From a virus, in IMG/VR virus record IMGVR_UViG_3300007504_000030, positions 1-37,505 of that record: 37,505 bases of DNA. One strand, given 5' to 3'. The notes beneath the pieces are model-generated. The model was given only the letters and a program-made list of their open reading frames with translations. It was not told where the DNA came from and made no database searches. The position numbers and the translations under genes are program-made. Every line of letters starts with the position of its first letter. Within the stretch, counting starts at the first letter, position 1. Shown one piece after another: positions 1,048-37,505 of the stretch.

Positions 1048-1749
1048 TTATTTAGTTAGCATTTTAACAACGGTCTCTAAAGTCCACTCTGGTGTTTGAA
1101 ATTTAGCTTTCTTAACACCATTTAATATTTGATTGTCTGTGAATGGCACCAGTTGTTTGGCGGCCCTCAAATGTCTCTTCAGAGCTATTTGGTATTGATC
1201 TTTGGTTTGCAGATCTGGCTTTCTCTCCTCAAAGTACAAGGCAATAACGTTCATGTCTCTACGAACACTATCTTCTAACTTTTTGATTTCGTCCTTTAAA
1301 GAAAATGGTGCGGAGGTTTCCTCCGCTATATCTTTATTATCATTATTTACATTATTATCATTATTGTTTGTGTCCGCTTGCTGTCCGCTTGCTGTCCGCT
1401 TGCTGTTCCTTTTGTTGTCCTTTTCTTGATGCTCTTTCCAATTCACTATTGTAATTAAACGATATTTTGTTGTTTTTTGTTGTTCAATCTGATGTTCGTT
1501 TTCAAGCAATTTTAAAATTCTTTCTACTGTAGACGGTTTTATTCCAGTTTGCTTAGCCAAAGAGTTACGACCTGTTATGAGTTGCCCTTTCTTTACCATT
1601 ATTATAGAGTCGTTCCACATAAATTCTTTTGGTTCATGATTAGCTAATAATAATAGATGTATCCATAAATGAATATAGGTGGATTTTTTATAATATCCTT
1701 TTTCTTGTATTTTTCTATGTAGACTAATCCAACCCTGTTTTTCATTCAT
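1048..1749 (-). CDS. phage replication protein with helix-turn-helix (DnaD/O-like)
   Basis: The 233-aa protein starts WISLHRKIQEKGYYKKSTYIH, the typical opening of phage replisome-organiser proteins. It continues with a winged-helix segment (residues about 55-90: GRNSLAKQTGIKPSTVERILKLL, here split by the usual turn). A low-complexity Asn/Asp linker lies around residues 115-140, and a C-terminal helical part ends TPEWTLETVVKMLTK. This is the pattern of initiators that load a helicase at the origin. The linker is encoded by three 11-bp tandem repeats plus an AT-rich tract, which may itself be an origin. A TTGACA-N16-TATTAT promoter lies about 120 bases upstream. No Shine-Dalgarno; leader is A/T-rich. 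Confidence 0.8.
   Translation of the reverse strand: MNEKQGWISLHRKIQEKGYYKKSTYIHLWIHLLLLANHEPKEFMWNDSIIMVKKGQLITGRNSLAKQTGIKPSTVERILKLLENEHQIEQQKTTKYRLITIVNWKEHQEKDNKRNSKRTASGQQADTNNNDNNVNNDNKDIAEETSAPFSLKDEIKKLEDSVRRDMNVIALYFEERKPDLQTKDQYQIALKRHLRAAKQLVPFTDNQILNGVKKAKFQTPEWTLETVVKMLTK
1325..1370. other. AT-rich tract beside the iterons (candidate DNA-unwinding element)
   Basis: This stretch is built almost entirely of att/tta triplets and abuts the iteron block. In the protein it gives only an Asn/Asp/Val linker. An easily melted tract flush against iterons is what an origin needs; that role is inferred from layout. Confidence 0.45.
1371..1403. repeat. three tandem 11-bp iterons inside the replication gene
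   Basis: The unit tgtccgcttgc occurs three times head to tail without a mismatch. Eleven is not a multiple of three, so each copy is read in a different frame and codes for different residues; the repeat is therefore conserved as DNA rather than as protein. An almost pure A/T stretch (1325-1370) follows immediately. Iterons plus an AT-rich tract inside the initiator gene is the layout of the lambda O-gene origin. Confidence 0.75.
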
Positions 1750-1765
1750 AATACTTACACACTAA

Positions 1766-1858
1766 AATCAGCAACTATATGGATAAAGAGTTTTTGACGA
1801 CTCTGATAGTTGCTGATTGTAATATATAAATATTTTGTCGTCTTACTTTATCCATATA
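1766..1858. repeat. two overlapping, interleaved 13-bp inverted repeats
   Basis: Repeat A pairs 1766-1778 with 1806-1818; repeat B pairs 1776-1788 with 1846-1858; both are perfect over 13 bp. Inside B, gacgac (1796-1801) can also pair with gtcgtc (1837-1842). The left arms of A and B share three bases and the arms alternate, so in RNA the two hairpins exclude each other. They could instead be operator half-sites. They lie in the predicted leader of the replication operon. Confidence 0.6.
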
Positions 1859-4751: not shown

Positions 4752-5015
4752 ATGCTTCATAAAAGAGTAAAAACCATTTGGCACGGAGAAGTAGGAATAC
4801 ACGAAAAATATATCAATTCCTCTGGTGGTTTATTACTCAGCTATGTAGGAGACCAAGAAGCATACTTAGCACAGCAGATGTTCATTTCTGAAGAGGGGTT
4901 AGCTAAAGGAAGAAGAGGAAAAGAAACGTATAGAGATAGAAGTGATCCAACTAAATCGTATCAGTTAATTTACTTCAAATGGAAAGATGTTAAATTTCAA
5001 CCAAGTTTATTATGA
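4752..5015 (+). CDS. hypothetical protein, paralogue A of a duplicated pair
   Basis: The 87-aa product shares most of its length with the protein at 5685-5945: both contain HGEVGIHEKY, GRRGKETYRDR and DPTKxYQLIY in the same order. The conserved Arg/Lys/Glu block near residues 55-70 suggests nucleic-acid contact or a small enzyme core, but no known family is recognised. It ends overlapping the next start at ATGA. The pair frames a repeated gene order, paralogue A, one unrelated gene, then a QN-motif recombination gene. Confidence 0.75.
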   Translation: MLHKRVKTIWHGEVGIHEKYINSSGGLLLSYVGDQEAYLAQQMFISEEGLAKGRRGKETYRDRSDPTKSYQLIYFKWKDVKFQPSLL

Positions 5016-5326: not shown

Positions 5327-5691
5327 AATGCCCCCATTGCAAAAAAGAAACAGGTCAAAGAACATCAGCTCAGAATAGAGCTTTACATCTCTGGTTAAGT
5401 ATGAAAGCTAAACAATGTCGTGATGCAGGTATAAATCCACGACAAGTCTTAGAAAAGACTATTGAGCTTGAAATGACAGATGAACAGATGAAAGAGTTCT
5501 GGAGATCAGTACAAAAAGCTCTCTACAAAACTAAATCTACAAAAGAGCTATCTAAGCATGAACAGATTGAACAGATAGCAGAGCATCTTAATCGTTTCTT
5601 CGCAGAGAACTTTAACTTAGAGGGTGTAGAGTTTCCTGATATACATGCTGTTGGTGGTATGTGTGGGAAGAAGAGTTGTCCTAAGTGTTAA
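5323..5691 (+). CDS. NinB-like recombination protein with terminal zinc motifs
   Basis: The 122-aa protein carries the phage recombination-mediator pattern: RTSAQNRALHLWL near residues 13-25, KSTKELSKHEQ near 71-81, and a closing NLEGVEFP. These blocks are common to small phage proteins of the NinB/Orf type that act on recombination intermediates. CPHC at the start and GMCGKKSCPKC at the end could form a zinc site joining the termini. The protein at 6076 shares the QN block and likely the family. The stop overlaps the next gene, which must then begin with GTG. Confidence 0.6.
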   Translation: MKCPHCKKETGQRTSAQNRALHLWLSMKAKQCRDAGINPRQVLEKTIELEMTDEQMKEFWRSVQKALYKTKSTKELSKHEQIEQIAEHLNRFFAENFNLEGVEFPDIHAVGGMCGKKSCPKC

Positions 5692-5945
5692 ATAAAAACA
5701 TTAAAACTGTATATCATGGGGAAGTTGGCATACATGAAAAATATCTAGACTCTGGCGGTCTTATACTAAATTATGTAGGAGAACAAGAAGAATATGAGGG
5801 TGGACAAATGTTTTTAAATCAAGAGCAACTACAACAAGGTAGAAGAGGTAAAGAAACATACAGAGATAGACATGATCCAACTAAACAATATCAACTAATC
5901 TATTACAAGTGGACGGAGACTAAACATCAACCTACATTATTATGA
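5685..5945 (+). CDS. hypothetical protein, paralogue B of a duplicated pair (GTG start)
   Basis: The 86-aa product aligns end to end with the 4752-5015 protein (shared HGEVGIHEKY, GRRGKETYRDR, DPTKxYQLIYYKW). The only possible start that keeps the conserved N-terminus is GTG at 5685, which overlaps the previous stop by seven bases. Both copies are intact, so each is presumably used. Divergence is moderate, and the second copy uses more Gln and Glu. The function is unknown; the family appears to travel with recombination genes. Confidence 0.75.
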   Translation: MLNKNIKTVYHGEVGIHEKYLDSGGLILNYVGEQEEYEGGQMFLNQEQLQQGRRGKETYRDRHDPTKQYQLIYYKWTETKHQPTLL

Positions 5946-6599: not shown

Positions 6600-6878
6600 A
6601 TGAAAAGAGCATTTAAAATCATTGGAATAATTGTTGTAGTGATATTATGGTTGATATGGATATATTTAATGATTACACCATTTAAAACACAAGCTTCAGA
6701 AAGATTTGTCGGTTGTGCTATAGATTTATGTCCCAAAGGAATACAAGAATGGCATTTTAAGAATGGTGGAATGTGGGGGTGTGCTTCATATGTGAAAGAC
6801 AGTAAAGAGTATTGGCGATGCTATTGTAATGGTGCTTTAGATTGGCCAGATAGCTTAAATTATTTAAAATGTAATTGA
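6600..6878 (+). CDS. secreted or membrane-anchored Cys-rich protein
   Basis: The 92-aa product has a basic start (MKRAFK), a hydrophobic helix at residues 7-26 (IIGIIVVVILWLIWIYLMI) and a possible signal-peptidase site after TQA near residue 33. The exported part has six to seven cysteines (VGCAIDLCPKG, WGCASY, RCYCNG, LKCN), a spacing that suggests disulfides outside the cytoplasm. Early-transcribed, exported phage proteins of this size often change the host surface or block superinfection; that role is inference. No family is recognised. Confidence 0.7.
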   Translation: MKRAFKIIGIIVVVILWLIWIYLMITPFKTQASERFVGCAIDLCPKGIQEWHFKNGGMWGCASYVKDSKEYWRCYCNGALDWPDSLNYLKCN

Positions 6879-7135
6879 TGAAAATAATAAAGATAATAAA
6901 AAAATATGTAATATATCCTATTGCTAATTATATTACATATAAAATTATTGATACATCTAAAAAACATTACAGAGATTATACAGATGAAGAGCATGATAAA
7001 TATTGGGACAGAGAAATTAAAATTACAGCAAAAGAATTATGGGATGTTAAACTTCAAAAATTTAGAAAGAGGGTGGATGTCAACACCTATTTAGGTGCAA
7101 TGGAATTTGTTAAGTATATAATAAAAGATAAGTAG
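6878..7135 (+). CDS. hypothetical basic protein
   Basis: The 85-aa product starts at ATG 6878, which shares one base with the previous stop (TGATG); a TTG one codon earlier is less likely. The N-terminal 25 residues are basic and moderately hydrophobic (KIIKIIKKYVIYPIANYITYKI) and may associate with membranes. The rest is charged (DYTDEEHDKYWDREIKITAKELWD). Its stop codon lies inside the left arm of the 25-bp RNA helix that follows. Function unknown. Confidence 0.68.
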   Translation: MKIIKIIKKYVIYPIANYITYKIIDTSKKHYRDYTDEEHDKYWDREIKITAKELWDVKLQKFRKRVDVNTYLGAMEFVKYIIKDK

Positions 7136-7290
7136 TTCTTTGTAAGTAGAGAGGGTCATAAAAAAATAATGCATATAAAAAATTTAAATTTTGTTGATTA
7201 ATACTCAACCTGTTCTTTCTCTCCTATTCCCACTCATACCTACAAGAAGACTCCACCCATCCTCTCTACTTACAGGGAATTACCCTGTAA
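7132..7290 (+). ncRNA. long-helix RNA element 2 with a competing hairpin
   Basis: Bases 7132-7156 pair with 7259-7283 over 25 consecutive positions; 14 of them (7141-7154 with 7261-7274) are perfect, and the four wobbles (7135-7280, 7139-7276, 7140-7275, 7155-7260) are G-U only in plus-strand RNA. The palindrome 7270-7290 (TTACAGGG, aatta loop, CCCTGTAA) uses the same right-arm bases, so the long helix and the short hairpin exclude each other. The loop contains a GTTGA/TCAAC hairpin and a pyrimidine-rich run. It is the leader of the Shine-Dalgarno cassette that begins at 7330. Confidence 0.6.
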
Positions 7291-7329
7291 TAGTTCTTTG
7301 ATAATTTAATATGAAAGGAGGTAAATCAA

Positions 7330-26410: not shown

Positions 26411-26598
26411 TTTCGTCTCCTTCTAAAAGCCCAATAGTCTATTTGTACTCCTTGAAATATACCCTCTGAATCAAAGTGTAGCACAGCTTTGCCATTTTTC
26501 AAGTCTAACGCACCAGATCCGATTAAAGACGCTATGATCTCTTGATATTTGAGTGTATAACTCTCGTCTTTATCTGGTATGTCAACTTCTATTTTCAT
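26407..26598 (-). CDS. hypothetical 63-aa protein
   Basis: The small product starts MKIEVDIPDKDESY and ends with a basic block (YWAFRRRRK); a helix near residues 18-30 (QEIIASLIGSG) links two strand-like parts. It lies four bases into the terminase gene end and four bases into the acetyltransferase start (ATGA junctions), so it is translated in between. It is not recognised; a packaging accessory role is possible from position only. Confidence 0.68.
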   Translation of the reverse strand: MKIEVDIPDKDESYTLKYQEIIASLIGSGALDLKNGKAVLHFDSEGIFQGVQIDYWAFRRRRK

Positions 26599-28073
26599 AT
26601 TCCTAATTCTTCATAATAACCCTCTTGTGGTGCTGATTGTTGCTGTGACACAGTTGAAGTGGTTTCTTCTGCTATCTGTATCTGATAAGCTTCTGCATCA
26701 GCTACATCATCATGAGCTCCTTTAGGAAATCTGACAAGCTCTTCTTCTAAATCACTGCACATTCCCTCAATGTGATAGATAGTTCCTGAACTGTAGTATG
26801 GTATCAAACCTCTTATTCTCAACACTTTAGCTTGCTGTTCATGCTTCAGCACTACAACTGTGAAGAACACATTTCTTTGTCTCATCTCTACTTCAAGATA
26901 CGGCTTTATCACTTGCTCATAAACACCTTGTTCTATACCGACCTTTTCAAATCCATAGTCTTGATAGACTTTGAACATAAAATCAATTAAATCAGGTGCG
27001 TTCAGTCTTAGCTTCCATGCTATCAAGTTCCATTTATTCTCTCTATCAATGAAGTTCAGTACAGCACCTATGTTGTCTGATTTGTCTCTCATAGCAGAAG
27101 CAGGGTCAATCGTTAAGAACTTTCTTGTCTTTAGCTTAGACACTTCTTCAAGAGATCTCTTCTTGAACCATGCTGTCTTAAACTCTTGTGACTCTTCATC
27201 TACTGGATTCTGTTGATAAAGTGCTGACCACTTATATGGACCTAGTGCTTTCTTAGTTCTGTTCAACTGCTCTAGAGAGAACTTATCAGGCCATAGTGGG
27301 CTTCCCTCTTCTCTATTCGCTTCTTGTTTCTCTGCAACTGCTGTGAAGTTTATAAGCTCCCATTTGTCATAGTCAGTATCTCCATTAGCTTGTGATTCTT
27401 TCTCTTGTGCTAAGAGTCTACCTGATAAGTCTGCATCATGCCATCTAGTGTTGATAAGTATTATGGCCGCATTTCCCTCTTGACGAGTGTAGAACGTTGT
27501 AGAGTACCAATTCCATATATTATCTCTTATCACTTCTGACTCTGCTTCTTCATCATTCTTAAAAGGATCATCAATAATACCTATCTTAAATCCTTTACCA
27601 GTAATAGCACCACCTACTCCCACAGCTTCATAACCACCGTCTTTCTGTGTCATCCATGAAGCTTTAGCTTTCGTGTCTTGTCTTAGTCTGGTGTCAAATA
27701 TGTTCTGATATGATGAACTATTTATTATATCTCTTGTTCCTTGACCGAACTTAGTAGATAGATCTTGTGAGTATGTAGAGACAATGATAGGAAACTCTGG
27801 ACTCTTACCTAATACCCAAGCAGGAAACTTCTTTGTAGCTAACTCTGACTTACCATGACGAGGTGGCATAGTAATCATAATACGAGGACTTTCACCATTC
27901 TTTACTCTCTCGTATACACTTTGAAGAAGTTCAGCTATTTGGTCGTGAAACCATTGTGGGTCATAATTTACATCAGTTACTACACAGAAATCACGAAAGT
28001 CATCTCTAGCTACTCTCTCCGCTAGTAAGCTGTTCTCTTCTTCTGTTGTTAATGATTCGTTCAAGTTGTTCAT
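26595..28073 (-). CDS. terL: terminase large subunit
   Basis: This 492-aa protein is the motor ATPase and headful nuclease that drives DNA into the procapsid. Walker A is PPRHGKSE (70-77), Walker B IIDDP (166-170), motif III INTRWHDADLSGRL near 207-220. The C-terminal RNase H-like nuclease has Asp323 in LTIDPASA and the AHDDVADAEAYQ acidic pair near the end. Length is normal for phage large terminases. The reading frame overlaps the small subunit gene by 68 bases, so the two are tightly coupled. Confidence 0.95.
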   Translation of the reverse strand: MNNLNESLTTEEENSLLAERVARDDFRDFCVVTDVNYDPQWFHDQIAELLQSVYERVKNGESPRIMITMPPRHGKSELATKKFPAWVLGKSPEFPIIVSTYSQDLSTKFGQGTRDIINSSSYQNIFDTRLRQDTKAKASWMTQKDGGYEAVGVGGAITGKGFKIGIIDDPFKNDEEAESEVIRDNIWNWYSTTFYTRQEGNAAIILINTRWHDADLSGRLLAQEKESQANGDTDYDKWELINFTAVAEKQEANREEGSPLWPDKFSLEQLNRTKKALGPYKWSALYQQNPVDEESQEFKTAWFKKRSLEEVSKLKTRKFLTIDPASAMRDKSDNIGAVLNFIDRENKWNLIAWKLRLNAPDLIDFMFKVYQDYGFEKVGIEQGVYEQVIKPYLEVEMRQRNVFFTVVVLKHEQQAKVLRIRGLIPYYSSGTIYHIEGMCSDLEEELVRFPKGAHDDVADAEAYQIQIAEETTSTVSQQQSAPQEGYYEELGI

Positions 28074-28374
28074 CTGTTAATTGTATCTTATTAACCACCT
28101 TAGCTTCAATAAGTGGTGACTGATAAGGTTTACCGTCTAACATCTCAACTAAATGTTTCTTATTAGCAGGGTCATTAAGATATGAAGCTAGAAACTCATC
28201 AAAGTCTTCAGGGTTTGCTTTGAACATTTGTTTAATCCTGGTGACAGCAGAAAGAGTTCCTGCTTCCCTACCTTTAGGATTACCAGAAGTTCCTTTAGGC
28301 CACTGATATTTCTTCAAATGCTCTGCAGGATTTCTTCTCTGTTTTGGTTGTTCAATGGGTGTTTCTTCAATCAT
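28006..28374 (-). CDS. terS: terminase small subunit (DNA recognition)
   Basis: In this 122-aa protein the centre carries YQWPKGTSGNPKGREAG (residues 23-39), the signature of the phage family with a DUF5681-type domain usually annotated as small terminase. A helical region around residues 40-90 and a basic end (ERIINNRRREQ) would contact DNA. In P22-like phages the small subunit recognises the packaging site. The 18-base palindrome at 28382-28399 lies right in front of the start codon, and a large structured RNA precedes it. Confidence 0.75.
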   Translation of the reverse strand: MIEETPIEQPKQRRNPAEHLKKYQWPKGTSGNPKGREAGTLSAVTRIKQMFKANPEDFDEFLASYLNDPANKKHLVEMLDGKPYQSPLIEAKVVNKIQLTDEQLERIINNRRREQLTSGESS

Positions 28375-28381
28375 ATCTATA

Positions 28382-28399
28382 AGTTATCACATGATAACT
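28382..28399. promoter_or_regulatory. palindrome just upstream of the small terminase start
   Basis: AGTTATCA-CA-TGATAACT is an 18-base dyad ending eight bases before the start codon. In RNA it gives a six- to eight-pair hairpin next to the initiation site; as DNA it could be an operator or part of a packaging recognition site. No T-run, so not a terminator. Confidence 0.5.
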
Positions 28400-28408
28400 A
28401 ACAATGTC

Positions 28409-28687
28409 TATAGTTCACTAAATCTATAAGGCGTGATGACTACTATTCTTCTTGTTATATGTCCTACGTTTCTATAATCAACCGATTAAGATCAATTATT
28501 TTCTTCGTCTAAAAATATACCCTATCAATGTGTCGCCACACGATCTTATAAGCCAGATATATTCAAGGTAATTAGAATATTGAAAGCTCGCACTCGTACA
28601 ATTATGGGAAGTTCTAAGTTCACTATTGCATAATTGCTCATCTAAGACTCTCGTCTAAACTACACCTTATAGATTTAATGAACTATA
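28409..28687 (-). ncRNA. multi-helix structured RNA upstream of the terminase genes
   Basis: In leftward RNA a 23-bp closing stem (28665-28687 with 28409-28431) has a single irregular position that is U-G on this strand and C-A on the other. Inside are an AGAC/GTCT stem with a GAGA (GNRA) loop (28645-28656), an 8-bp stem (28629-28636 with 28599-28606), a 6-bp stem (28575-28580 with 28559-28564), GTGT/ACAC (28530-28541) and a 10-bp stem with three wobbles (28490-28499 with 28474-28483). It has no reading frame of note and fills a 308-base gene-free gap. A packaging RNA, a pac element or a novel phage RNA are all possible. Confidence 0.6.
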
Positions 28688-29081
28688 CATCTTTTATCTT
28701 ATTAACAGCTTCTTCTTCACTAATAATATTTCCATACATAACACCACTTAAATCTTTAGAGATATGCTTTAACAAACGTCTACGAGCAGGTCTGTTGTAA
28801 TGTTCTAACGCATATCTATACTGATTACGATACGCTTCTAACTCTTGCTCTAATCTAAAGTCTATATCTACAAAATATTTACTCCACCATGCATCTGAAC
28901 CACCTATTTCTTTCTGCTGAACTACATGAGTCTCTTCGTGTGCTAGTAAGTCATCACTTACAGTTGGACCACCATCTGGATTATAAAGCTTACCCTCATA
29001 CGTGAATACTATTCCTGGCTTTAAAGTAAATACTTCTCTAATCTTATCTATGTTGGGTGGATAAGCATTTACTATTTTCAT
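28683..29081 (-). CDS. zincin-like metallopeptidase-fold protein
   Basis: The 132-aa protein has LLAHEETHVVQQKE near residues 45-58, an HExxH motif, and a downstream ELEAYRNQYRYA whose Glu could be the third zinc ligand. This is the gluzincin/DUF4157-like plan also found beside phage head genes. No signal peptide is visible, so it would act in the cytoplasm or in the virion, for example as a maturation protease; the fold could also be non-catalytic. Its stop codon lies inside the closing stem of the RNA element that follows. Confidence 0.7.
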   Translation of the reverse strand: MKIVNAYPPNIDKIREVFTLKPGIVFTYEGKLYNPDGGPTVSDDLLAHEETHVVQQKEIGGSDAWWSKYFVDIDFRLEQELEAYRNQYRYALEHYNRPARRRLLKHISKDLSGVMYGNIISEEEAVNKIKDV

Positions 29082-32382: not shown

Positions 32383-32848
32383 AATTTAAGAAATTAACTA
32401 ATAAAGGATGTGGCTTTTCTTTACTTGACTGATATTCTGGATGACTTTGTGTTATGAAAAAATTCTCTGGTGTATCTTGCTCTAGCTGAAGAACTACGGA
32501 TGAATCAACTTCATACCAATTCCAATAACTCTCTCCGTTTTTTAATCCTACGTTCAATTCAGGTAGCTTCTTAACAACAAACGTTCCCTCTCCAAACTCT
32601 TCACTTGTAGCATCTTTAATACTTAAAACATGTCTTGCAAACTCTATAGCTGTAAGTTGATATCCTGCACATATACCTAAAAACGGTCTTCCACTTTTTC
32701 TTGCTTCAGCTATTCTGTCTATCATAAATTCAGTATTAGACGGGGAGTGGGTTCCACAAATAATAAGACCATCATATCTTCGCCATTTTTTGTCTATCTC
32801 CGAAAGAGCTTTTTCAACAGACGTATTGAAGTTGTTAAGAATTTCCAT
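32357..32848 (-). CDS. class I glutamine amidotransferase, CTP-synthase-like
   Basis: In this 163-aa enzyme the nucleophile elbow GICAGYQLTAIEFARHVL (58-75) has Cys60, with the IEFAR-HVL continuation that is specific to the CTP synthase glutaminase rather than to HisH. The His136 and Glu138 pair is in TQSHPEYQS. It lacks a synthetase domain, so it must supply ammonia to a partner. The partner is almost certainly the sugar amidotransferase encoded directly upstream, whose 3' end it overlaps by 55 bases in another frame. In known clusters (wbpG, pseA) HisH fills this role, so the recruitment seen here is unusual. Confidence 0.85.
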   Translation of the reverse strand: MEILNNFNTSVEKALSEIDKKWRRYDGLIICGTHSPSNTEFMIDRIAEARKSGRPFLGICAGYQLTAIEFARHVLSIKDATSEEFGEGTFVVKKLPELNVGLKNGESYWNWYEVDSSVVLQLEQDTPENFFITQSHPEYQSSKEKPHPLLVNFLNYAKSKMAM

Positions 32849-33846
32849 AATTTTTCATCAGTTTTAAAATTTTTGTACGACCTTTTAGGATATCGCATAA
32901 CCCTTTTTTCTAAACCTATCTCTGGATATACAGGACACTTACCGAGTTCATCTAAAGCTTCATTTCTTGTCATCTGACCACTATTTATCAATGACGATAA
33001 ATGTGCCTTCCTTTTATCAATACTAAACTTTTCAAAGAGATAGTAATTTTGAAACCATTTTGTGAACACAGACTCTCCATGTTTTTCCCCATAATCTTGC
33101 CATCCGTATTTATCTTCTAATATTTTAATAGCTTTAGCTCTATTATACCCTACATAATCAAGCAAATATAATGTCTTTATTTTTTTAATCCATTTATAGT
33201 AATTCCATTTAAGAAGTGAACAGACTGGTAATCCTGTAAGCTTTTTACCTGTCATCTTTCTGTATACATCTTTTATGTGAACTAAATCTCTAGCATTATA
33301 TCCCCAAGATGCAGGCATTATACTTTCTGTTGCTACATTACCACCAGAGAGAATCCATTTAATATTATATTTACTCGCCATTTCTAAAGTAGTAGCCATT
33401 AAAATATGATCTGTCGGAATCTCTATGTTCCTCTGTCCTGCTTGCATAAAAGCACCTTGTAATTCAACAAACTTTTTTGTGTCTATAGTGTAACGATAAA
33501 ATGGTACCTTTAATCCTTCAACTAATCGCATTATATTTTCGTCAGCTTTCGGATCATTCCATCCATTATCTACAGAGAAACAAAGAGGTCTTAATCCAAA
33601 CTCAACAGCTTTATGAAGAGTATACGAAGAATCTACACCACCAGATAATCCAATAAGACAATCGTACTTCTTATTTATTTCATCTTTCTTAATATCTTCA
33701 ATTAAATAATCTGTAAATTGAGATTCCACATTTGCATCAATAATTTCATTCTTAGCTATGTGACAGAAATTACAAACACCATTCTCATCAAAAGTGATTT
33801 CTTCCGCACTCTTATCCATTACACATTTTACGCATTGTGTTTGCAT
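32794..33846 (-). CDS. N-acetyl sugar amidotransferase (WbpG/PseA-like)
   Basis: The 350-aa protein starts CVKCVMDKSA, with Cys5, Cys8, Cys25 and Cys28 making a zinc site. It continues with the PP-loop SGGVDSS (68-74), and has the ATP-dependent amidotransferase body with LSGGNVATESIMPASWGYNA. This family (TIGR03573-type) turns an N-acetyl group of an activated sugar into an acetamidino group using ammonia from a glutaminase. It occurs in pathways for amidinated uronic acids in Pseudomonas and in pseudaminic-acid derivatives in Campylobacter. The basic tail is the reading frame that hosts the start of the glutaminase gene. Confidence 0.88.
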   Translation of the reverse strand: MQTQCVKCVMDKSAEEITFDENGVCNFCHIAKNEIIDANVESQFTDYLIEDIKKDEINKKYDCLIGLSGGVDSSYTLHKAVEFGLRPLCFSVDNGWNDPKADENIMRLVEGLKVPFYRYTIDTKKFVELQGAFMQAGQRNIEIPTDHILMATTLEMASKYNIKWILSGGNVATESIMPASWGYNARDLVHIKDVYRKMTGKKLTGLPVCSLLKWNYYKWIKKIKTLYLLDYVGYNRAKAIKILEDKYGWQDYGEKHGESVFTKWFQNYYLFEKFSIDKRKAHLSSLINSGQMTRNEALDELGKCPVYPEIGLEKRVMRYPKRSYKNFKTDEKLWKFLTTSIRLLKKLFRR

Positions 33847-34613
33847 ATCGCATTTATCAATTTAAGACTTTTCTCCGATTCTTCTATTCCTATACCACGA
33901 CCAGCAAGAAATTCTCTGTACACTTCAGTGTGTAAATCTTCATATGAAAGATTATCCTGATTTGATAATACTATCTCCTTTCCATCGGCTACGAGCTTAC
34001 GACCTTGCTCATCTCGGCTATTCACTATTTCAATATGAAAATTAGCTACACTATCTCCAAAACGAACAATTGCTACAACTTTCTTATCTGTCTTATTCAC
34101 TTCCATAATCTCCCAAGAATCCCCGAGTAAAAATATACCCAAATCTATATAGTGAACTCCTAAATTATATAATACACCACCAGACATAACTTCATTTCCT
34201 TTCCAAGAATCCCAATATTCTTTATCTCTGAACATTTTTGCGGTCACTTGCAATTCTTTCGGCTTATTGATTTTCTGAAGTTCAGGATGATATCTTAATT
34301 GAAGCACAGTTTTGACTCCGTCCAATCCTTCAGTCCCATTTATACTCAACGGTTTTTCACACAGCACTTTCTTACCTTTTCGTAAAGCTTCTCTTGTTAT
34401 TATGGAATGCAGATAATTGGGAGTACAGATTGATACATGAGTTATTTCATCAAAAATAGGGTCATTAAACATCTCTACCCAGTCAGTAAAACTTGTGCCT
34501 TTATCCTTATCTATGTCGCATGTTAAAAATACTTCTCCACCTAATGATTCTATCGCTTGTCTATGACGAGGAAATATAAATCCTCTTCCTATTATTGCAA
34601 ATTTAGCTTTCAT
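33828..34613 (-). CDS. Gfo/Idh/MocA-family sugar dehydrogenase
   Basis: The 261-aa protein has an N-terminal Rossmann strand AIIGRGFIFPRH (6-17), SICTPNYLH near 61-69, the EKPL motif (86-89), and the C-terminal substrate site GGVLYNLGVHYIDLGIFLLG with His154 and Asp157. This is the plan of WlbA/WbpB-type enzymes that oxidise C3 of a UDP-amino-uronic acid before transamination. With a DegT aminotransferase and a hexapeptide acetyltransferase in the window, a 3-amino uronic acid route is plausible. It is shorter than typical WlbA (about 310 aa), so the substrate loop may be reduced. Confidence 0.82.
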   Translation of the reverse strand: MKAKFAIIGRGFIFPRHRQAIESLGGEVFLTCDIDKDKGTSFTDWVEMFNDPIFDEITHVSICTPNYLHSIITREALRKGKKVLCEKPLSINGTEGLDGVKTVLQLRYHPELQKINKPKELQVTAKMFRDKEYWDSWKGNEVMSGGVLYNLGVHYIDLGIFLLGDSWEIMEVNKTDKKVVAIVRFGDSVANFHIEIVNSRDEQGRKLVADGKEIVLSNQDNLSYEDLHTEVYREFLAGRGIGIEESEKSLKLINAICKHNA

Positions 34614-35316
34614 ATTCTTTATTTTTATCTTTAATAGTTTCTGTAATAAAACTGTCTAATAAATCACAATTATTTACGACACAGTGTCCTCCTATCTTTC
34701 CTTTTACTGGGTCAAGAACAGGTCTTACAAATTGAGGCATATTCAGTTTTCCATAACCAGTATTGTAAAACCAATTCCATTCTGTATACACTTCATGAAA
34801 TGGCACCTTTTCTTTTTTACATATCTTCGCCACTTCTTTCATAAATAAAATATTCCAACCATAATAAGAAGTGCAAAGTATTTTAGAAAGCTCTGATGTT
34901 TTAGAATCTGCTACTATTCTTGTATTTATATCTGCTTCTTGTAAGAATTTATTAGCAAGATAAACAGCATAAACATTGTCACCGCCAATATATTTAGTAA
35001 AAGTTCTAATACCGCCAGACAAATCAGGGTGTTTACCATGTATTGGACTATGTACCACCATATCACCACATTTAGCTGTCGTTCCAGCTTTCACTGTGCT
35101 ATGAATAATTGTTACTTTAGGGTTATATTGTTTAATATACGCTTTTGTATCTTTTACAAAATCCTTTGAGTATGGATAACAAATATTCAGCACTTCTACA
35201 TTCCCATAAGTAATAACGTCTTTCTTGTCTCTAATACAACTACCTTTATGTTTTAAACGAATAATATCATGTAAAGATTGACCTATTTCCCCTGCTCCTA
35301 TTATTAATGATTTCAT
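34603..35316 (-). CDS. UDP-sugar dehydrogenase-like protein, reduced form
   Basis: In this 237-aa protein, KSLIIGAGEIGQSL (2-15) is a Rossmann nucleotide site. STVKAGTT and HSPIHGKHPDLSGGI (about 93-115) resemble the NAD-binding half of UDP-glucose/GDP-mannose dehydrogenases, and KIGGHCVVNN near 210 recalls their GGHCIP block. Normal enzymes of that family have about 400 aa and a catalytic Cys in the middle domain; this one lacks that domain. It may be a shortened dehydrogenase or a decarboxylase-like relative acting on the same nucleotide sugars. It overlaps both neighbouring genes at ATGA junctions. Confidence 0.55.
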   Translation of the reverse strand: MKSLIIGAGEIGQSLHDIIRLKHKGSCIRDKKDVITYGNVEVLNICYPYSKDFVKDTKAYIKQYNPKVTIIHSTVKAGTTAKCGDMVVHSPIHGKHPDLSGGIRTFTKYIGGDNVYAVYLANKFLQEADINTRIVADSKTSELSKILCTSYYGWNILFMKEVAKICKKEKVPFHEVYTEWNWFYNTGYGKLNMPQFVRPVLDPVKGKIGGHCVVNNCDLLDSFITETIKDKNKEYES

Positions 35317-36143
35317 ATTATATAAAAATGTTTATTTTTAATAGCTATTTTCTCTTCATCTTTTGTCATCAGTTTTTCATCCAATGTCTCACCTGTTCTT
35401 ATTCCTATCTCTTTAATCGGATGATTACCGTACAACTCTTCTTTTAAATCTACTATGTATCTTAATTTTCCCATATCCATTATAAATGTTTGTCCATCTT
35501 TCCCTTGTTGTGAAGCTTCAATCACTAAACTACAAGCTTCAGGAATCGTCATCATAAAACGCTTCATTCTCTTATCTGTAATTGTAATCGGTTCATTGTT
35601 TTCCACCTGTCGTTTCCATATTCTCAATACACTACCTTGACTATTCATAACATTACCAAATCTCACTGACACAAATTTTCTTCCTGCTTTCTTTACTAAT
35701 CCTTCAGCACATAGTTTTGTAATACCCATATTACAATTTGCGTTCACTACTTTATCTGTTGAGATGAATACAAACTTTTCTAAACACTCCCATTTCTTAG
35801 CTTCTTCAATTAAATTAAGTGTACCAAGTATATTAGTCTCTACCGCCTCTCTAGGGTATTCTTCATTTGGTGTAACATGTTTTAAGGCCGCACAATGAAA
35901 TACTATTTGTGGTTTAAAATCACTAAAGACATCAAACACAGTATTCTTACATTTAATATCACCTGTTCTTGAATGTACCCAGTGACCCTTTTCTTTCATT
36001 TCTTCTCTTAAAAGAAAAGTATTATTCTCATTAATATCAATAATGAAGATCTTATTTTTTGAAGCGAGCTGTCTTACAAGTTCAGAACCTATACTTCCTG
36101 CACCACCTGTAATTAATATTCTTTTATTTTGTAAAGAATTCAT
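35313..36143 (-). CDS. nucleotide-sugar 4,6-dehydratase-like SDR (PseB/WbpM type)
   Basis: The 276-aa protein has the Rossmann GGAGSIGSEL (13-22) and FHCAALKHV near 82-90. Its active site STDKVV has Thr129, Asp130 and Lys131, and Met139 and Lys143 are in NMGITK. Met instead of Tyr at the catalytic position is the mark of the short CapD/WbpM/PseB branch, which converts UDP-GlcNAc to a 4-keto-6-deoxy sugar. RFGNVMNSQGSV and the MKRFMMTIPEA line are also diagnostic. It would feed the aminotransferase encoded just upstream, whose gene it overlaps by 20 bases. Confidence 0.88.
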   Translation of the reverse strand: MNSLQNKRILITGGAGSIGSELVRQLASKNKIFIIDINENNTFLLREEMKEKGHWVHSRTGDIKCKNTVFDVFSDFKPQIVFHCAALKHVTPNEEYPREAVETNILGTLNLIEEAKKWECLEKFVFISTDKVVNANCNMGITKLCAEGLVKKAGRKFVSVRFGNVMNSQGSVLRIWKRQVENNEPITITDKRMKRFMMTIPEACSLVIEASQQGKDGQTFIMDMGKLRYIVDLKEELYGNHPIKEIGIRTGETLDEKLMTKDEEKIAIKNKHFYII

Positions 36144-37170
36144 TTATATATCTAATTACTTCACGAACTTCTTGATCTGTTATCACATCATTACAAGGTA
36201 GTCTTAACGTCTGTTTTTCAAGCTCAATCGTCTCTTCAGGTTTAGGACAATCATCAGGAAAATAATAGTCGTTCTTCATTGTCTCTATATTATTCAATGA
36301 TAAAAATACAGATAGCTCATCTCTTTCTTTTGTTTTAATAATATAATCCTGATAAACTCTTCCTTTTCTATATTTAGGTGTATCTAAATAACCGTTACTA
36401 ACTAAACCGTCATCATACATTAATGCAATCTCATTTCGTCTATTCAACATATCTTCTAAATATTGAATCTTAACATTAAGAATAGAAGCTTGAATATTAT
36501 CTAAACGTGAATTAAAACCCCACTTTCCAGGATTATATTTATAATGATTACGCATATCTTTCAATTCATTTGCAAACTCTTCATCATTGGTTGTTATAGC
36601 ACCACCATCACCAAAACATCCAAGTATCTTTGCAGGATAAAATGAGAAGCATCCAGCCCACCCCCAAGAGCCAGCTTTCTTTCCGTCTAACTCTGCACCT
36701 AGTGCTTGACACGCATCCTCTATAATAGGTACGTCAGTCTCATCTGTTAAAGCTTTCATATCTACCATATCCCCCATTAAATGAACAGGTATTATAGCTT
36801 TTGTTTTTGAATTAATTTTAGATAAAACTTCATCAACATCCATCATTCCGTCTTCTTTCACATTCACTAAAACAGGTGTAGCACCACAGTTATGAATAGC
36901 TTCTACTGTTGCATGAAATGTGTGGCCTACTGTGATTACTTCATTTCCCTCTTTAACACCTAGAAACTTTAAAGATAGAAACAATGCGTCAGTACCAGAG
37001 TTTAAACCTACAGCATATTTAGTTCCTACAAATTCAGCAAGATTCTTTTCAAACTCTTCTACATCTTGTCGTAAAATTAAATCACCTCTTTCTAAGGTAT
37101 CTTGTATAGCATCATCTATTTCGCCTTTATATTGTAAATATTGTTTATATGGATCAAAAAATCTAATCAT
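36124..37170 (-). CDS. DegT/DnrJ/EryC1-family sugar aminotransferase
   Basis: The 348-aa PLP enzyme shows SGTDAL (58-63), THGHTFHAT-like phosphate contact near 81-88, EDACQALGAE (151-160) with Asp152, and the Schiff-base Lys181 in FSFYPAKILGCFGDGG. The family transfers an amino group from glutamate onto a keto sugar bound to a nucleotide. The downstream dehydratase makes a suitable keto sugar, and the Gfo-type enzyme can make another. Start ATG 37170 overlaps the transketolase stop (ATGA), so the two are coupled. Confidence 0.92.
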   Translation of the reverse strand: MIRFFDPYKQYLQYKGEIDDAIQDTLERGDLILRQDVEEFEKNLAEFVGTKYAVGLNSGTDALFLSLKFLGVKEGNEVITVGHTFHATVEAIHNCGATPVLVNVKEDGMMDVDEVLSKINSKTKAIIPVHLMGDMVDMKALTDETDVPIIEDACQALGAELDGKKAGSWGWAGCFSFYPAKILGCFGDGGAITTNDEEFANELKDMRNHYKYNPGKWGFNSRLDNIQASILNVKIQYLEDMLNRRNEIALMYDDGLVSNGYLDTPKYRKGRVYQDYIIKTKERDELSVFLSLNNIETMKNDYYFPDDCPKPEETIELEKQTLRLPCNDVITDQEVREVIRYINEFFTK

Positions 37171-37505
37171 ATTCGTATGTAAGTTGGATTATCATTTAAT
37201 AATGCTTCTTTTAATAAATCGCTATCTTTCGGAAAGAATAAATCTAAGTTCGGTAGATTTTTAAGTAAATCATATTCATTTTCCATTTCTGACATGTTGT
37301 GGGTAAAACCAAGAAAACCACTTGCACCAGTACCAATCAACTTCACATTTAAATTCTGATAAGCAACATCATCTCGTATCTGTTCGTAAGCTCTCATGCA
37401 AAGAAAGATTGAACCTGAATACACATATGGTTTCTTCCCTGCTCTTGCTAATCCTGAAGCAACACCTATCATATTCTGTTCTGCAATTCCACAGTTTATA
37501 AACTG
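37167..37505 (-). CDS. transketolase C-terminal subunit (partial, runs off right edge)
   Basis: The frame is open at the edge; 112 codons are visible. It begins QFINCGIAEQNMIGVASGLA, which is the strongly conserved pyrimidine-domain line of transketolases with the catalytic Glu (GIAEQNM). It continues LTHNMSEMENEYD-type sequence and FFPKDSDLLKEALL, typical of the second half of a split enzyme. Such half-size pairs occur in glycan clusters, where they move two-carbon units onto sugar precursors. The N-terminal half would lie beyond the window. Confidence 0.85.
   Translation of the reverse strand, partial: QFINCGIAEQNMIGVASGLARAGKKPYVYSGSIFLCMRAYEQIRDDVAYQNLNVKLIGTGASGFLGFTHNMSEMENEYDLLKNLPNLDLFFPKDSDLLKEALLNDNPTYIRI

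Follow-up and report, generated by a model that had tools for sequence, protein, structure and literature searches.

The DNA studied here is a window of 37,505 bases from a virus record, and its terminase genes lie on the minus strand, where the large subunit TerL (26595 to 28073), recognized by a Terminase_6N match and terminase PHROGs, is preceded by a candidate small subunit, TerS, of 122 aa (28006 to 28374), whose match to DUF5681 is weak and falls short of the curated cut-off, and which was named by its position and by relatives adjoining TerL. Upstream on the same strand lies a gene of 132 aa (28683 to 29081) carrying an HExxH-type motif (HEETH), and the borders of these two ORFs confirm the gene-free gap of 308 nt (28375 to 28682) that a sequence-only reading had described. 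The gap holds a long-stem element (28409 to 28687), directly downstream of which is the TerS candidate, and between this element and the TerS start stands an 8+8 bp palindrome, AGTTATCA-CA-TGATAACT (18 bases, AGTTATCACATGATAACT, 28382 to 28399), which could possibly be an operator or a small hairpin. The window has no tRNA genes, a stem-plus-T-run terminator was not found, and none of the promoter and terminator calls was strong enough for use. Elsewhere in the window, two similar small proteins (HGEVGIHEKY...GRRGKETYRDR) are encoded close together at 4752 to 5015 and 5685 to 5945, which looks like a gene duplication.

In the leftward RNA, bases 28687 to 28662 pair without interruption with bases 28434 to 28409, forming a closing helix of 26 bp, whose 5′ arm (28662 to 28687) spans the TAG stop codon (28683 to 28685) of the upstream ORF and whose 3′ arm (28409 to 28434) lies on the TerS side. 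This helix had been described as one of 23 bp with a single irregular pair that is a wobble only in leftward RNA; the helix itself and the leftward-only wobbling hold, while the length proved to be 26 bp and the irregular pairs two, both U-G, at positions 10 and 24 of the helix. The helix has a stacking energy of −40.2 kcal/mol, whereas the best helix among 1500 shuffles of the gap reached −26.1 kcal/mol with 17 bp, and the best among 30 shuffles of the whole window reached −30.7 kcal/mol. For the full element the predicted fold comes to −75 kcal/mol, while its shuffles average about −53 (z about −4.9). The closing helix is far beyond chance, and the inverted repeat is real.

The 227-nt interior (28435 to 28661), which contains predicted hairpins and no noteworthy ORF, behaves differently: folded alone, with the closing helix removed, it reaches −40.7 kcal/mol, and its shuffles average about −42 (z +0.24 and +0.36). 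Only the closing helix exceeds chance, and the internal hairpins, the GCGA-capped one included, need no separate explanation. The ornate multi-helix RNA with at least five internal hairpins that had been proposed is thus not borne out, as the interior folds no better than its shuffles (z +0.2 to +0.4). A GNRA-capped hairpin is indeed present in the predicted fold, with the cap GCGA, and so is the 10-bp hairpin with three leftward wobbles, but the wobble argument built on the latter is circular, because folding the sense strand itself selects sense wobbles.

These results bear on the proposal that the element constitutes a functional non-coding RNA of its own, about 280 nt long and tied to packaging, either pRNA-like or a new structural RNA, for which the site directly upstream of terS-terL and the long closing helix would speak. 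We regard this as very improbable. Besides the interior not rising above chance, an Rfam scan returned no family either at the gathering threshold or at E up to 5, GOLLD, ROOL and pRNA included, and the phage motor is an ordinary TerS/TerL pair, without a phi29-type ATPase that needs pRNA. Two of the three long helices of this phage, described below, are distant from the terminase, and a relative whose TerL is 78% identical lacks the helix at this position. The possible link to packaging that had been raised by likeness to pRNA, GOLLD and ROOL is therefore unsupported, and the case cautions against calling a large fold a packaging RNA only because terminase genes lie next to it.

An exhaustive scan of the whole window for uninterrupted helices with a span of up to 450 nt revealed exactly three outliers, namely the terminase-side element on the minus strand and two on the plus strand, 2478 to 2642 and 7132 to 7283. 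The second element (2478 to 2642) has a closing helix of 27 bp (−41.3 kcal/mol) with four G-U pairs, all in the sense RNA, around a 111-nt interior, and the third (7132 to 7283) one of 25 bp (−41.4 kcal/mol), likewise with four G-U pairs, all sense, around an unstructured 102-nt interior, while the next independent helix reached only −25.1 kcal/mol and others, antisense ones included, did not go beyond about −26.5 kcal/mol. The inverted repeats of these two elements had first been listed by a strand-blind repeat search; the earlier reading had missed both helices. All three elements are intergenic, occupy most of their gaps and are oriented like the flanking genes, and they start within −4 to +7 nt of an upstream sense stop codon: −3 nt for 7132 to 7283, where the stop of ORF 6875-7135 falls within the helix base, +7 nt for 2478 to 2642, which follows ORF 2061-2471, and −4 nt for 28409 to 28687, where the stop likewise lies in the helix base. 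Their arms are unrelated in sequence, both by eye and in an arm comparison, and their interiors gave z values against shuffles of +0.74, −1.5 and +0.36, respectively. The second and third elements lie among the small early genes, far from the terminase, and a related long hairpin of about 28 bp with one mismatch (1747 to 1837, minus strand) lies in the leader of a leftward operon. Among the 95 loci surveyed (1.2 Mb, with some overlap), only the window carried three intergenic stems of at least 24 bp with loops of at least 30. What was unexpected is that one phage has three matched stems and that its relatives have counterparts of them. As separate observations on the third element, the direct repeat TAGTTCTTTG occurs at both of its ends (7132 to 7298), and an adjoining hairpin, TTACAGGG/CCCTGTAA, would compete with the 3′ arm of its helix.

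All ten imperfect pairs of the three helices are G-U in the sense RNA, and none is a transversion. An RNA-level role is favoured because every imperfection is a sense wobble, and an RNA structure transcribed leftward is plausible at 28409 to 28687. The same pairs could also arise by another route, as the sense strand is poor in C (C 0.13-0.14, G 0.20-0.22), so that C-to-T mutation could yield sense wobbles without selection. This belongs to a reading in which the inverted repeat either works at the DNA level or has no function, as a pac or replication palindrome or a remnant of template switching, its wobbles resulting from strand-biased mutation. Pac sites adjoin terS in some headful phages, and the element does lie beside terS; its interior shows no structure above chance, and other phages of the terminase group bear palindromic motif arrays that resemble DNA sites. 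However, such a reading has to account for three helices with ten of ten imperfections as sense wobbles and no transversion, for the recurrent placement at stop codons in the transcribed orientation, and for the position of two of the three helices far from terS, and we judge it unlikely.

Mobility offers a further explanation, in which the element would be a MITE-like non-autonomous insertion of 279 bp with 26-bp terminal inverted repeats, placed at a TA by an IS630/Tc1-mariner-type transposase of the host. The arms do start with TATAG (TATAG...CTATA), with TA bordering the element at both ends, and the interior is unstructured and non-coding. The arms equal Correia repeats in length, and their first 20 bases match the variant tatagtggattaaatttaaaccggtacgg at 16 of 20 positions (PMC5039591), a likeness estimated as not significant with arms that are AT-rich and many families open to comparison. 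The upstream stop codon lies inside an arm, and when the flanks are joined with one TA, the upstream frame extends by 14 codons and overlaps the TerS start, although an open frame of this length has a substantial chance probability. The nearest relative lacks the element, but its site carries other genes and is not a clean empty site. Against an insertion, the phage holds no second copy, and a search by arm pattern turned up no other viral contig with the arm; one genome scan for a host element of this size with paired, closely matching arms gave none, its single match being a chance one that extends into a coding gene. Moreover, the phage has two other helices that equal this one in length and energy while their arms are unrelated, which a single MITE family fails to explain. 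Taken together, we hold an insertion to be rather improbable.

The IMG/VR copies of the gap (28375 to 28682) are all identical and therefore carry no covariation information at this locus, and homologue searches via TerL, TerS, the upstream gene and an early gene returned identical copies and one clear relative, with no informative variants; among named phages and plasmids, no similarity of substance was seen. The nearest relative, G002 (43.9 kb), shares 78% identity in TerL, 77% in MCP and 64% in the portal protein, and before its TerS there is no such helix but other small genes. A sugar and QueC-like gene cluster of the window (32794 to 37472; nucleotide-sugar epimerase, aminotransferase, QueC-like) is mostly kept in this relative. 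G002 has long stems of its own, at 1558 to 1654 and several at 40.4 to 41.8 kb, unrelated in sequence to those of the window. Its stretch at 40435 to 41792 (L029:1435-2792; 1.36 kb) reaches −500 when the minus strand is folded, 12 shuffles averaging −379; it comprises at least four long-stem modules with many long hairpins on that strand, and gave no Rfam match. Two small genes probably lie within it, so that it does not represent a single RNA.

Elements of similar build occur in other relatives. In G007, an element of 157 nt in a gap (L120:16930-17086) has a closing helix of 24 bp, about 31 with the outer pairs, and internal hairpins, whereas G008 has a 22-bp stem, possibly a hairpin of terminator type with a T-run behind it. 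The element of G009 and G010 (L077:2896-3007, L078:3240-3351; 112 nt, also given as 100 nt with a 24-bp stem) follows a stop codon, and the two sequences are about 95% identical around it and differ at three sites inside, all three of which keep their pairs: the G-C pair of columns 35 and 41 becomes A-U through changes on both sides, and a G-U pair turns into A-U by the change in column 25. These pair-keeping changes support an RNA fold for the G009/G010 element, which is analogous, not homologous, to that of the window. The preference for sense wobbles is not a universal rule, because in L044 it is the antisense strand of the hairpin that forms the better pairing, and the small stems at 40609 and 40751 of G002 favour antisense by one mismatch each. 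In the arm comparison across elements, a 10-base match of the 28409 to 28687 helix to L044 and a weak likeness to a G002 arm were seen, and an arm motif common to the elements was rejected, as these matches were judged chance given the number of comparisons. The stems of L063, L079, L115, L059, L056, L060, L068 and L105 were set aside, since they resemble arrays built from short palindromic motifs. Arrays of this kind (GTGTACC, GGAACA and GTGTAGCA types) occur in other environmental phages at L063:6365-6586, L079:3472-3692 and L115:7075-7365, and further ones at L059:4380-4671, L056:7874-8165 and L105:7375-7488; they look like iterons or binding-site arrays. A simple repeat encoding Gly-Ser/Tyr/Asp-type repeats lies near the terminase genes of a relative (L013:3000-3240).

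Based on these findings, we tentatively propose that the element at 28409 to 28687 is a long intercistronic RNA stem specific to this lineage, at which the host RNase III would plausibly cut to separate mRNAs. Bacterial RNase III cleaves double-helical RNA, including the processing signal R1.1 of phage T7 (PMC4858673). The 25 to 27 bp of the three stems span, in the predicted sense RNA, the two or so helical turns expected of an RNase III site. In a leftward transcript running from the HExxH-motif gene into TerS-TerL, the 26 bases at the upstream stop codon would pair with the 26 bases before TerS, and the closing helix would loop out a spacer having little structure of its own; the same layout, with unrelated sequence, would form after two other genes of the phage. 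Such a helix of more than two turns would be a ready substrate for the host RNase III, which could cut both strands and part the upstream mRNA from the terminase mRNA, thereby setting defined 3′ and 5′ ends and releasing the spacer.

A wider and more speculative claim, which we put forward with considerable doubt, is that phages of this terminase clade share stop-codon-anchored stem elements of 22 to 31 bp with a variable spacer, defined by architecture rather than by sequence, that are reused to cut or insulate transcripts and form, in one relative, part of the structured 1.36-kb array. Should the stems prove to be processing signals, they would reveal a way in which uncultured phages split long transcripts where intrinsic terminators are scarce. 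Since their shape and not their sequence is common, such stems would be missed by sequence-based family searches such as Rfam, while a plain scan for long helices with sense wobbles detects them.

Several known systems resemble these elements in part. The phi29 pRNA has a long closing helix and is located near packaging genes. The element at 28409 to 28687 shares both traits, but differs in accompanying a TerS/TerL motor, in matching no Rfam family and in having sister elements elsewhere in the genome. In precursor rRNA, RNase III releases a large loop closed by a long helix. The stems of this phage resemble it in closing a large loop with a long helix, although their loops are only 102 to 227 nt and have no structure above chance; RNase III is known to act on rRNA precursors (PMC4858673). 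GOLLD and ROOL, which are large, highly structured, conserved and often found by tRNA islands (PMC12286853), are alike in being phage-carried non-coding RNAs, whereas the window has neither tRNA genes nor an Rfam match. Correia repeat enclosed elements and other MITEs are likewise small and intergenic, with 26-bp inverted repeats starting with TATAG; however, Correia elements measure 69 to 151 bp (PMC5039591) against 279 bp here, no multi-copy family was found, and the arms of the sister helices are unrelated. In T7, no stem of comparable strength appeared in the same scan; R1.1 as studied is a 60-nt RNA cut to 47 and 13 nt (PMC4858673), whereas the stems of this phage, putative cleavage sites, have 25 to 27 uninterrupted bp and loops of 102 to 227 nt. 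Nevertheless, like R1.1 and the other intercistronic RNase III sites of phages, they are helical elements read in the sense direction between the genes of a phage mRNA.
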